Assembly: GCF_035083965.1 (NCBI RefSeq)
Contig: NC_089725.1
Location: 32,619,524 to 32,683,523, forward strand
Length of the DNA: 64,000 nt
Source: Branchiostoma lanceolatum
Lineage: Eukaryota > Chordata > Leptocardii > Amphioxiformes > Branchiostomatidae
Direction of reading: 5' to 3'
Positions within the stretch are counted from its first letter, which is position 1; each line of letters opens with the position of its first letter. A program made the translations under genes and the position numbers. Of the stretch, positions 161-64,000 are shown one piece after another. Below the pieces are notes generated by a model. That model was given only the letters and a program-made list of their open reading frames with translations. It searched no databases and was not told the DNA's origin.

Positions 161-3100
161 GTGATTGACCCCGTGGCGCCGCGTTTCAACGCGCTGCAGC
201 GGGACGGAGCCGTGCTCATCAACCTGCCGGGGGTCAAGGACGAGATGAAGGAGGTCCCCAAGCACCCCAAGGTCAGGTCATAGGTCATGGGAGACAGTGG
301 GCTCTTTCTCCATCCTACTGATTTAGATTTCATGTCGCACAATAATGTCGACTTGAAGATGGTAGTTTTTATGAACTAGGCTGTAATACCAAATTTAATG
401 TACATGTACGTACAGTTTCCTTTAGATGACGAAGATGATAAACAAACAAACACCAACTTTCATTTTCATTTGTGTTTTTGTAATAGATGTAAGTGTGAGG
501 ATGGATGTTTATGGATTTATAAGGACTCTGATCATGTAATCTTGTGTGTGGTGTCTATTTTGTCAAAGTCTCGCCTGCTCCCTCATGACCTCAATGAAAA
601 GTGGCCAGTAGGCTGATTTGTGAGGCTCGAACAAAAAAACAAGAGTTGTGTCCCCAGAATCCTGATGTTGGGCAGAAGGAGGTGTGGTACTCCTCCAGGG
701 TGTACATAGATGGTCAGGATGCTGCGACGCTGACGGAGGGAGAGGTCGTGACCTTCATCAACTGGGGAAACGTCATCGTCAAGAAGATCAACAAGTGAGT
801 GTGGAGATGTTCTCATGATCGTCAGGTTAAGTTGGTAAAGCCCCTGTCTCAGTTCTCACTGGACCCTCAGCACATTGGGGACCTCGCTGCGACCAAGCAA
901 TTATACAGAACACTCAACGAATTTCATCGATAAAAAACTAATGTTTTTATGCTTTCTTAGTTTTGTTGTCATACTTTTAGTATTACATACTTAGTATTAC
1001 ATTCTGTATGATATTTCTATTATCAAGCCAAAGGTTCTAGTCTAGCAGATGTTGAATGAAATTCAGCTGTCTTATTATCAAAAACGGCTGCCTTGGTACC
1101 TTGTCAAACCCCATCTGTCTCACAGTGACTTGCATGCTACTGGAAAGGGTTGCAGTCCTTAGGACGGGATGTTAAGCTGTGGTCCACTGAATGGATTAAG
1201 GTACATCTGCATTTTCTAGGATTCACTAAGTCAGCAGATCCACAGTTCAAATCCTGGCAGACTCAACTGACTTAATGACGCTGGAAAAGGTTGCAGTCTG
1301 TAGGACGGGATGTTAAGCTGTGGTACATGTACATACAATAGATTAAGGAACATTTTCTAGGATTCAGTAAGTCACTGTAATGTCCCATCCCTGCAGGAAC
1401 AAGTCTGGAGCTGTGGAGTCCATCGATGCCCAGCTGAACCTAGAGAACACGGTACGGCTTTACTCTCTGGTCATGTCCTGGACTGTAGAGGACAACTTTA
1501 CTCCCTCAGCATAACAGACAAACAAAACCAAATGCATGTCACGGGTAGATTGTATAGAGTTGGAAAGTCTTGGAAAGTCCTGTCACACAGGTCACTTGTT
1601 ATCTAGATAGATTATCTATCCCGTACTACGGTAGTCTAACTATTTGCACTTTGAGGAACCACAAAAGATCTGGCAACAGTTTTCTCCACCATTCTCGGTT
1701 TTCTCTTCTTCATAATGTTTCACTTAGTGTTTTTTCAAATGTTTTAAATGTTTTCTGAAAGAGTGGTATCTGTTCCCCAGATCTATAGTATAATAAGACA
1801 ATAAAGGGATTTTTTTAATTTCCAAGTGTCTGTTCACTCACTCACACTTTCTCACTGTTCAAATGTTTAAAGTGTTTTGTCATGTTTCCCCAGGACTATA
1901 AGAAGACAGCGAAGCTAACCTGGCTCGCAGACACCCCGAAGGCCCCCTTCACCCCGACCGTCGTCACGCACTTCGACCACATCATCTCCAAGGGCGTTCT
2001 CGCCAAGGAGGACGAGTTCAAGAACTTTGTCAACAAGGACACCAAGGTCAGGAGCAGCAAGAGTGTCAAAACACTTCTCTAGTAGTAGTAGTAGTATCCA
2101 GTATTATATTATACTGCTGCGGGGTTCCCTGACGCAGGGGTAGGCAGCAGTCGGCCAGTCTTCACACAGCGCCTCCAAGCGGCTCTGTCCAGCGGGTCCA
2201 TGTTGGTGAGGCCGCACTCTGTAATGTCCTTCTTAACGCACTCAGTCCAGTTCTCTCTCTGCTCTAAAACTGCTCATTCACCTGGTGTAGTTTTCAGCCA
2301 TTCCTGTTGAGACCTATCTGTCTTGGATCTTACTTCAGTGTAAGATGTTCGGAAGAAGTTGAGACTTCCATGTAAGATGTTCCCAAGAAGTTGGGTCTTA
2401 AGTGTACAAATCACAGTACAATCTTGCTCAGAAGATGAGACTTAAGTGTAAGATCTTCCCTTGTACTTGAAGATGGGGAAGAGACATTGATGTTAGGTGA
2501 CCCCTGCAGGTGTTACAGGTGTATTGTGATGCCCCCCCAGAAGGAGAGACAGTGATGTGAAAAGACTTGTTCATCTTAAACCACAGATGAAGACAGTGAT
2601 GTTAGGAGATCCGTGCAGGTGTTACAGGTATAACAGGTGTGTTGTGTTACTGTATTTGCAGATGGAGACAGTGATGTTAGGAGACCCGTGTCTGGCTCAG
2701 CTGAAGAAAGGTGACATCATCCAGCTGCAGAGGCGCGGCTACTACATCTGCGACGTTCCCTACGAGCCGCCAAGGTGATTTATGTGTGTTGTACAAACAA
2801 ATGTGTGTTCTAGCTGTTACACCTGCTAGCCAACCCCCTGTGTAATGTGTGTTTTAACGTGTGCTGTAAATGTATGTTGTAACATGTGTTGTAATGTGTG
2901 TTGCTTTGTAACGTGTGTTGTACATGTGTTACAGCGGGTACAGCTGCCAGTCGACCCCCTGTGTAATGTGTGTTGTAATATGATTGTGATGTAACATGTG
3001 TTGTACATGTGTTACAGCTGGTACAGCTGCCAGCCCACCCCGTTTGTGCTGTAATATGTGATGTAACGTGTGTTATACATGTGTTACAGCCGGTACAGCT

Positions 3101-6100
3101 GCCAGCCCACCCCGTTTGTGCTGTAATATGTGATGTAACTTGTGTTGTACATGTGTTACAGCCGGTACAGCTGCCAGCCCACCCCGTTTGTGCTGTAATA
3201 TGTGATGTAACTTGTGTTGTACATGTCTTACAGCCGGTACACCTGCCAGCCGACCCCCTGTGTACTGTGTGTTGTAACATTTGTTGTAACGTGTGTTGTA
3301 CATGTGTTACAGCCGGTACAGCTGCCAGCCCACCCCGTGTGTACTGTGTGTTGTAACATTTGTTGTAACGTGTGTTGTACATGTGTTACAGCCGGTACAG
3401 CTGCCAGCCCACCCCCTGTGTACTGTGTGTTGTAACATTTGTTGTAACGTGTGTTGTACATGTGTTACAGCCGGTACAGCTGCCAGCCCACCCCGTGTAA
3501 TGTGTGTTGTAATATGATTGTGATGTAACGTGTGTTGTACATGTGTTACAGCCGTTACAGCTGCCAGCCCACCCCCTGTGTACTGTGTGTTGTAACATTT
3601 GTTGTAACGTGTGTTGTACATGTGTTACAGCCGGTACAGCTGCCAGCCCACCCCGTGTGTACTGTGTGTTGTAACATTTGTTGTAACGTGTGTTGTACAT
3701 GTGTTACAGCCGGTACAGCTGCCAGCCCACCCCCTGTGTACTGTGTGTTGTAACATTTGTTGTAACGTGTGTTGTACATGTGTTACAGCCGGTACAGCTG
3801 CCAGCCCACCCCGTGTGTACTGTGTGTTGTAACATTTGTTGTAACGTGTGTTGTACATGTGTTACAGCCGGTACAGCTGCCAGCCCACCCCCTGTGTACT
3901 GTGTGTTGTAACATTTGTTGTAACGTGTGTTGTACATGTGTTACAGCCGGTACAGCTGCCAGCCCACCCCCTGTGTACTGTGTGTTGTAACATTTGTTGT
4001 AACGTGTGTTGTACATGTGTTACAGCCGGTACAGCTGCCAGCCCACCCCGTGTGTACTGTGTGTTGTAACATTTGTTGTAACGTGTGTTGTACATGTGTT
4101 ACAGCCGGTACAGCTGCCAGCCCACCCCGTGTGTGCTGTTCCACATCCCAGACGGACATCAGAAGGAGATGCCCACAGCTGGCTCCAAGTCCAAGTCCAA
4201 GGTCAGGTTCAAACCCATACAAGCTACAGTCTTCCAGGCTGTGGATAGAGTTGTGTTTTTGCTTTGCTGTCTTTGATGACTCCCTCATACATGTGTATGA
4301 CCTGTACCTTCATTGTACACACTTCATTCCTTTGCTCTTCAGCTCGTGCCTTCTTGTGCCATTAATACTGAAGAACTGTGCTCACCTGTTCCTGTAGCAT
4401 TCCATGCTTAGTTCAGTAAACCCACTTTCATGTCTGCATGCTTATTCTGTAGTTGATTATAGAAGTACATGATATCACTCCCAAGTCAGAGCATCTACCC
4501 AACCGCTATGGTTCACGCCAGCTCCTGTGTTGTACATCCCGTTTTAAACCTTCATTACTTCCCATCACAGGCAGCAGCTGGGCAGAAGAAGCAAAAGGTT
4601 AAAGTTTAAATCTCTGCATATGTGTGGAGTTAACTAACACAGATGGAAGTGTATGAGATGCTTGAGGATTGTTCTTGTACATGTGACAGTCATGATCCTT
4701 TGTCTATGAGCTGATCTTATTGTCTGAACTCCTACCAGATATGCTCACAACAAGTAAACAGGAGTTTAAAAAGTACTTGCTGTTTCTTTGATGATGGTCA
4801 AGAATTATGTAGACTTCTTGAAATACATTTTTGGAAACCAATGATATACATGTTCACATGAAGGTGACATGAAGGATAGAAGGAAGGGACTGGCAGCTAA
4901 GAGAGACTGAATCATGAATGCATCAGAAGCACTACTACTAACTTTCACTGTGGCTTTCTCCTTGGAAAATGTGACTTTTTCAGAGTACAGTTGTCAGTAT
5001 AACTGTATTCACCTCAGACCAGGCTGGCAACATGTTTGTGACATTCAGGAGTTTATGTATGACTTTTGTGCAAATGGCAGAGTTTTAAAAGTCAAATGAT
5101 GGTAGGAAGCATGAAGCTGATGACAGTTGCTGGAATGAGAATTTTCACACCACTATGGATCCAGGTTGTTCTCAGTGTTTTGTATCTAGTTTTTAGCGTT
5201 ATGGTACGACGGAAGGAGGCAAACCGCTAAAAAAGTGTATAACTAGAAAGACACAGTAAGTGTTTCAAAAACAGGTGTAAGACACAGAGAATGAGTTGAA
5301 TCCTTACATCTGCTTGGAGCTTGAGCACGTAGGAATGTTTGTGGAATGGTCTGGACACCAAATTTGGTTTCCATGGTAAAAGAAGCTTCCTTGCCGAAGC
5401 TGTAACTATTATTCCTGACGGTTGCAGAAGGCTGACAAGGTGGAGAAGGCAGCGTCTAAGAAGGAGCTCCCGTCCCCCAAGGAGGAAGCGTCCCCCAGCT
5501 TCAGCCCCGACGACGAGCAGGCTCTCAGCGACAAGGTCGCCGCTCAAGGTGACTCCGTCAGGCAGCTCAAGGGCAGGAAAGCAGACAAGGTGAGTTTTGG
5601 GTTCCTCTCAGAGCTGAGGTGGTTGATTTTGTTTTCCTCAGAAGTGAAGAAATTTTAGAGTTAAAGAGCATTTTGAAAGCATGGGGCATTTTGTTTTTAA
5701 TAAATAATTTTTCTAGAGTCTTGATTTTGATAACCCAGATGATACTCGTATTTCTGGCTTTCCTGTGGTCTTCCAGCCCAGACTTGAGTGTGTCATGTTT
5801 GCTGTAATGTGTGTAACAAGGCCTTTACTATGTGCATTGTGTGTAATATGTACTTTCAGTGCGTAACAAGGCCTTTACTATGTGCATGGTGAGTAATACG
5901 TGCTGTAATGTTTGCTGTAATCCCCAGGCTGAGGTCGATGCTGCAGTGAAGTCCCTTCTGGCGCTGAAGGCTGAGTACAAGGCCCTGACCGGGAAGGACT
6001 GGAAGCCTGGAGCAGCTAAGAAGGGACCCGCCCCTGCTGCTACCCCTGCGGCCAGCCCCGCTGGTGTGGACGCCGTGAACGACAAGATCAAGGCCCAGGG

Positions 6101-63689: not shown

Positions 63690-64000
63690 CATCTTCATGT
63701 ATCCTGTTCTGTGCAATGGTGTGCTGTTTTCTATCTATCCTGTTCTGTGCAATGGGGTGCTGTTTTCTATCTATCCTGTTCTGTGCAATGGGGTGCTGTT
63801 TTCTATCTATCCTGTTCTGTGCAATGGTGTGCTGTTTTCTATCTATCCTGTTCTGTGCAATGTTGTGCTGTTTTCTATCTATCCTGTTCTGTTCTGTGCA
63901 ATGGGTTTTCTGTCTATGCTGTTCTGTGCAATAGTGTTTTCTATCTATCCTGTTCTGTGCAATGGGTTTTCTGTCTATCTGTCCTGTTCTGTGCAATGGG
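63690..64000. repeat. ~42-bp minisatellite at the right edge
   Basis: Seven or more units of TATCCTGTTCTGTGCAATGG + GGTGCTGTTTTCTATC, running off the window. On the minus strand each unit has CATTGCACAGAACAG, matching the acceptor CATTGCACAGACAG of the tentative exon at 63667. Confidence 0.9.

Follow-up and report, generated by a model that had tools for sequence, protein, structure and literature searches.

Tandem arrays across exon-intron borders in a 64,000-nt window of the lancelet Branchiostoma lanceolatum as probable mirage minisatellites

Results

Genes and tandem repeats in the window

We analyzed a 64,000-nt stretch of the Branchiostoma lanceolatum genome (assembly GCF_035083965.1, contig NC_089725.1, positions 32,619,524 to 32,683,523; hereafter the window), in which a preliminary description had drawn attention to tandem arrays whose repeat units contain a splice site. 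Protein-to-genome spliced alignment, with GT-AG and GC-AG introns allowed and human proteins as queries, produced continuous spliced models for EPRS1 (the ProRS half, preceded by the final part of the GluRS half), ATP6V1D, TTL, ARPIN, C1D and an MFSD13A-like transporter. Independent searches supported these identities (ProRS/EPRS and GluRS, V-ATPase subunit D, TTL, Arpin, the C1D family and MFS); the more specific name MFSD13A follows the query sequence and is provisional. A TREX-like gene was modelled with less certainty than the other six, its protein scoring 23.1 bits in Pfam, under the family cut-off of 24. The WHEP exons of EPRS1 were read directly from the sequence, and its acceptor at 13345 was set by eye (the aligner placed it at 13343). 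With TREX, whose border is not settled, excluded, the six-gene set comprises 105 splice borders in 41,935 bp, and all 13 borders that had previously been given by coordinate agree with the models.

Tandem Repeats Finder (TRF) returned 106 rows in the window, which merged into 37 loci (score at least 50, unit at least 15 bp). Twenty-four of these lie wholly within gene spans, while the other 13, including those at the MFSD13A, ATP6V1D and EPRS1 ends, lie outside or partly outside the coding spans and were left out of the tests below.

Repeat units contain modelled splice borders

The units of 10 arrays detected by TRF contain a modelled exon-intron border, and direct search added the borders at 2662, 6932 and, weakly, 14282. 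EPRS1 holds six of the 10, all on the plus strand (unit counts here and below include the true copy). The array at acceptor 4105 (2906-4139) consists of 16 units of ~79 bp and was examined unit by unit, and that at acceptor 9537 (7787-9559) repeats a 58-bp unit 31 times. The exon beginning at 9537 carries a second array at its other end, donor 9776 (9727-10345), with four copies of a ~122-bp unit, one decoy of which matches the true site at 57 of 60 bases. At acceptor 13345 (12712-13389), a ~123-bp unit has five further copies; the coding strand of the intron portion of this array (12780-13290) is rich in GGGTTAG-like, telomere-like motifs. Exon 15461-15616 also has an array at each end: four copies, in units of ~47 bp and one of 140 bp, at the acceptor (15137-15501), and 25 copies of a 66-bp unit at the donor (15562-17221). 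Through this last array a frame stays open for 611 aa (15421-17256), which differs from the reading frame of the upstream exon.

The remaining four arrays lie in TTL and ATP6V1D, again on the plus strand and all found by TRF. Donor 38965 of TTL lies in an array of 10 units of ~126 bp (38876-40108), and its acceptor at 43350 (42640-43370) has decoy acceptors at 42651, 42787 and 43071, each matching at 21 of 24 bases, within a mostly intronic 33-bp array. In ATP6V1D, acceptor 28324 (28108-28356) is accompanied by one copy of a 131-bp duplication (identity 57/60), and acceptor 30317 (29913-30412) lies in an array of 68- and 131-bp units with four decoy acceptors.

The other EPRS1 borders, also on the plus strand, are of different kinds. 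At acceptor 2662 (2587-2690) there is a weak, degenerate single-copy duplication of the acceptor, with a decoy at 2587 and an identity of 29/40. At donor 14282 (14253-14330) one degenerate donor copy lies 43 bp downstream, at 14326; it matches at 23 of 30 positions on the exon side only, and the donor-centred 40-bp segment has no copy. Around acceptor 6932 (5923-7552; TRF periods of 368 and 401 bp), whole WHEP exons and their introns are tandemly duplicated, and additional copies of the acceptor lie at 6793 and 6670. Exons 5928, 6302, 6932 and 7333 and their introns are tandem copies of one another, with an exon identity of 0.82-0.89 and lengths divisible by three. Pfam identified six WHEP domains in the spliced EPRS1 linker (5428-11943).

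Arrays are concentrated on borders within the window

Our data support the conclusion that tandem arrays within this window fall on exon-intron borders above chance. In the placement test, each array lying wholly inside a gene span was collapsed to one unit, with unit lengths chosen from the TRF rows and the two whole-exon duplication loci set apart, and was placed at random over the similarly collapsed gene spans. Ten of the 14 arrays with a TRF score of at least 100 cover a modelled border, compared with 3.1 expected (P 3e-5), as do 10 of the 22 with a score of at least 50 (3.4 expected, P 2e-4); across 12 settings with all six genes, P ranged from 3e-5 to 1.6e-3. The 10 border arrays make up 8,972 of the 9,574 bp in the 14 tested arrays, the other four amounting to 602 bp. 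When purely exonic placements were barred, P was 9e-5 (score at least 100, 5 bp margin) and 7e-4 (score at least 50), with 1.6e-3 as the weakest value. With the best-scoring TRF periods instead, and the whole-exon duplications kept, 12/24, 12/16 and 12/14 arrays fell on borders at scores of at least 50, 100 and 200 (expected 5.7, 5.4 and 5.2), levels reached by 9, 3 and 1 of 20,000 draws; one border (5927) dropped out on collapsing in this version. Circular shifts of the borders gave a mean of 3.2 and a maximum of 9, and none of 33,493 shifts reached 10; the border enrichment proposed earlier is supported within the window. Donor 11943 of EPRS1 was entered as 11941 in the placement, copy-search, window, skew and breakpoint tests and correctly in the circular-shift and G+C-step tests.

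A test independent of TRF counted short windows that have an 80% copy within 2.5 kb, with 5900-7600 and low-complexity windows excluded; neighboring windows overlap and are not independent. Copies were found for 10 of 96 40-bp windows at borders, 113/967 at 11-20 bp into exons and 87/936 at 1-10 bp into introns. Exon interiors held few copies (4/1,015 at 81-160 bp and 6/193 beyond 160 bp), and introns gave 189/5,971 at 81-160 bp and 246/10,872 beyond 160 bp. The direction is that of the placement test, with borders exceeding introns 3.3-fold at a depth of 81-160 bp and 4.6-fold at greater depth.

Decoy splice sites are intact and locally resemble the true sites

Splice dinucleotides were intact in all 82 units of the four arrays that we checked unit by unit, namely AG in 16/16 units at acceptor 4105 and 31/31 at acceptor 9537, and GT in 25/25 units at donor 15616 and 10/10 at donor 38965; of these sites, 78 are decoys and four are true. 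The probability that a random adjacent pair of columns is invariant across all four arrays is ~0.24, so the intact dinucleotides indicate neither purging nor upkeep of the decoys. We saw no sign of selection against decoy sites (0/78 broken in the four arrays) or of selection maintaining them.

When true and decoy sites were compared over 60 bases at nine borders, two pairs were identical: the last decoy at acceptor 4105 and the nearest decoy at donor 38965 each match the true site at 60/60 bases. The remaining seven borders matched at 42 to 58 of 60 bases, the score being reduced in one case by a 1-bp shift. At 4105 and 38965, local sequence therefore cannot mark the true site, which must be picked by where it lies with respect to the remainder of the exon, presumably through exon definition. 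Spliced alignment through the exon-proximal sites gives continuous conserved proteins, and we took the exon-proximal site as the one used because the conserved protein is recovered with it; judged from these models, mRNA splicing is probably normal despite the arrays. The units carry scattered differences, and the units at the upstream edge of the 4105 array are less homogenized than the others. Homogenized units would fit arrays that are unstable in length, although they do not prove such instability.

Other arrays in the window

The preliminary description had listed 17 array places. Eleven of them have clear copies across a border, and two (2662 and 14282) are weak. At the donor of ARPIN exon 2 (35595-35912, minus strand), TRF found an intron array of 13 24-bp units that begins at the donor; it repeats AG|GTCAGG, the rest being intronic, so the unit holds almost no exon. 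For the other three (TREX, the stop end of the MFSD13A-like gene and the right edge of the window) a splice border was not established. In the TREX-like gene (57086-58534, minus strand), a 51-bp array of 9.2 copies with 0% indels (TRF; 57360-57827, minus strand) lies in an open frame of 482 aa, in which it would read as a 17-aa x 9 repeat within the exonuclease domain. The conserved domain resumes past the array, where the aligner had put an intron; the array may be a coding repeat or may belong to an intron.

Short arrays also span stop codons, at 21883-21978 in the MFSD13A-like gene and at 32099-32159 in ATP6V1D, and one lies just beyond the EPRS1 stop codon at 20744 (20790-20932). At 63700-64000, a 36-bp array runs past the right edge of the window; we identified no adjoining gene, and none of four reading frames at this edge had a Pfam match. 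On the minus strand at 48245-51062, open frames predict a Thr/Ser-rich, mucin-like protein with, by eye, a likely membrane segment, and its long frame had no Pfam match.

Discussion

The border arrays as probable mirage minisatellites

The anatomy of the border arrays, their intact decoys, the local identity of true and decoy sites and the concentration on borders in the window are direct observations. We consider it very likely that these arrays are mirage minisatellites, that is, arrays of tandem units spanning a true exon-intron border, which arose, expanded and came to be tolerated as follows. A short tandem duplication would have come first, starting and ending on opposite sides of the exon-intron border. 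It would then have expanded and been homogenized like an ordinary minisatellite, by slippage, unequal exchange or conversion; for both of these steps we infer the mechanism. The array would be tolerated because its extra copies lie to the intron side of the true site: if the spliceosome takes the exon-proximal site, through exon definition, the whole array is removed with the intron.

Several observations weigh against this explanation and against a general preference of arrays for borders. The preliminary description had placed arrays in most genes, or nearly every gene, of the window, which overstated their spread: border-crossing arrays occur in three of the six modelled genes, with six of the 10 in EPRS1, and no TRF array crosses a border of the MFSD13A-like gene (12 borders), C1D (8) or ARPIN (8). 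With EPRS1 excluded, four of five arrays fall on borders compared with 1.5 expected (P 0.017). The excess was also smaller in 24-bp windows, copies being found for 10/94 at borders, 315/5,759 in introns at 81-160 bp and 429/10,531 in introns beyond 160 bp, and the invariance of the splice dinucleotides is within the reach of chance, as given above. All of these data are the DNA sequence of one haplotype in one window of one lancelet.

Formation bias or survival

Two alternatives concern why arrays prefer borders, and both are compatible with the identification of the arrays as mirages. The first, which we regard as possible but not as the better bet, holds that no process is directed at borders: duplications form everywhere, those in coding sequence are purged, and those at borders stay recognizable for longer through their conserved exon copy. 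The scarcity of copies in exon interiors is what purging predicts, and the two arrays over stop codons lie at sites without splicing, which shows that an array does not need a splice site. In 24-bp windows, moreover, borders exceed introns 2.6-fold at depths beyond 160 bp and 1.9-fold at 81-160 bp, near the two-fold that we reasoned to be the upper gain from longer recognizability. However, the excess in 40-bp windows is larger than this, and the enrichment persists when exonic placements are barred. Uniform duplication with purging and recognizability accounts for some of the excess and, judged by the 24-bp windows, perhaps for the greater part.

The second alternative, which we consider unlikely on present evidence, is formation linked to transcription, in which a G-rich coding strand favors R-loops at borders and repair or replication there makes the duplications. 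GC skew differed between 11 array units (+0.19) and 84 control borders (+0.01; P 0.003 by permutation), in a comparison of unit and control windows of unequal length; mean G+C (0.50 in both) and AT skew did not differ, leaving skew as the only one of three measures that did. We also compared the two sides of the border separately, leaving out the WHEP exons, between 11 array borders (acceptor 2662 and the 10 found by TRF) and the 86 remaining borders. Skew on the exon side alone gave P 0.08, 0.04, 0.04 and 0.0035 at 30, 45, 60 and 90 bp, and the intron side P 0.02-0.03. With gene and site type held fixed, however, the one-sided P was 0.11, 0.07 and 0.007 at 45, 60 and 90 bp; exon skew at 45 bp was negative at two of the 11 array borders, and seven of the 11 lie in one gene. 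The cotranscriptional R-loops suggested in the preliminary description thus draw modest support from the G richness of the coding strand, a signal that weakens under the stricter comparison. A transition from exon GC to intron AT, its other suggested mechanism, found no support: in the same 11 and 86 borders the exon-minus-intron G+C step did not differ (P 0.28, 0.29 and 0.09 at 30, 60 and 90 bp, the array borders being lower at 60 and 90), and mean G+C was equal as well.

Donor-like GT at the breakpoints, among the last exon bases that the copies share, was counted by eye in six of eight acceptor arrays, compared with a base rate of 0.39 (P ~0.04), and in seven of eight by a looser count (P 0.007); both counts are post hoc, and we do not rely on them.

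Taken together, we think that the border preference of the mirage minisatellites is a mix of survival, in which coding copies are purged and the conserved exon piece keeps old copies recognizable, and some formation bias, the latter being plausible rather than demonstrated. A bolder proposal, which we regard as improbable as it stands, is that lancelet genomes have a standing, genome-wide duplication process at exon-intron borders, acting through cotranscriptional RNA:DNA hybrids on G-rich coding strands, which makes minisatellites of roughly a tenth of all borders (10 of 105 here) and whose two-border units add whole exons or domains, as in the EPRS1 WHEP region. If the preference were genome-wide, the arrays would provide a natural experiment on how the spliceosome chooses one among tens of near-identical sites, raw material from which exons could be duplicated and introns altered, and, in the G-rich coding strand and its R-loops, a concrete mutational hypothesis that could be checked in existing assemblies.

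We give little credence to intron birth, in which tandem duplication of an AGGT-bearing exon segment would have created the introns rather than decorated old ones. Such a model has been put forward for globin genes (PMC3087553) and reviewed as a route of intron gain (PMC3443670), but every border array here occupies one end of a longer intron, which also contains sequence outside the array. It is similarly very doubtful that the decoys are used, with donor arrays supplying optional peptide repeats or alternative exons. In its favor, the 66-bp unit of EPRS1 begins in frame and has a length divisible by three, and three of the 10 border arrays have unit lengths of this kind; however, the other seven do not, the coding frame into the 66-bp array hits a stop at about 15817, and peptide inserts would land in conserved synthetase and ligase domains. 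An assembly artefact is the least credible explanation: repeat collapse and expansion are common errors, and PGBD5 copy numbers differ between two amphioxus assemblies (2 vs 7 and 3 vs 6; PMC3902484), but the units here differ from each other at scattered positions, and re-examination of Sanger and Illumina data in the same report upheld the repeats of PGBD5.

Comparison with known systems

The link to amphioxus mirage minisatellites that the preliminary description had made is borne out by two reports. PMC3087553 (2010) documents globin genes whose intron-exon borders are tandemly duplicated and proposes intron gain; it takes the name "mirages" from an Adh3 report of 2002 and considers that other loci possibly make the phenomenon general in cephalochordates. 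PMC3902484 (2013) describes PGBD5 repeats of 60 and 108 bp over splice borders and cites troponin C. In these two papers, the units are 10-160 bp long and lie across one border, on the acceptor or donor side, and RT-PCR is reported to be normal. Related observations include VCBP3 introns in which exons are copied in full or in part, in some cases together with splice sites (PMC2632668, 2008), and a huntingtin gene with tandem repeats and assembly errors (PMC2206037, 2007). The former tallies genome tandem repeats by scaffold, with no mention of borders in the part of the text available, and we found no genome-wide border test among the papers listed for amphioxus, lancelet and Branchiostoma repeats in the open-access literature, as judged mostly from titles and the first lines of abstracts.

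Like the border arrays in the window, the amphioxus mirages (Adh3, the globins BflGb6 and BflGb9, PGBD5 and troponin C) have one border per unit and repeat AG or GT, and the less homogenized edge units of the 4105 array have a counterpart in BflGb6. Splice signals are kept in many but not all units of the published mirages, compared with 82/82 in our four arrays. The window, known here from DNA alone, differs further in its genes, in having 10 arrays over 105 borders and up to 31 units, and in the explicit enrichment test. The kind of array is therefore already known, and what is new is its member genes, its density in the window and a window-level statistical case for border preference.

Three other systems resemble the border arrays in part. 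The VCBP3 intronic partial exons are also exon copies with splice sites in introns, but are not described as minisatellite arrays in the accessible text of PMC2632668. Intron gain by tandem genomic duplication (AGGT) likewise multiplies splice signals; in the window, however, the intron exists beside the array, and one border is repeated with no new intron shown. Finally, EPRS1 itself contains exon duplication, since in its WHEP region (5928-7542) exons are repeated in tandem together with their introns. These WHEP units hold both borders and add a domain, whereas a mirage unit contains a single border and leaves the predicted protein unchanged.

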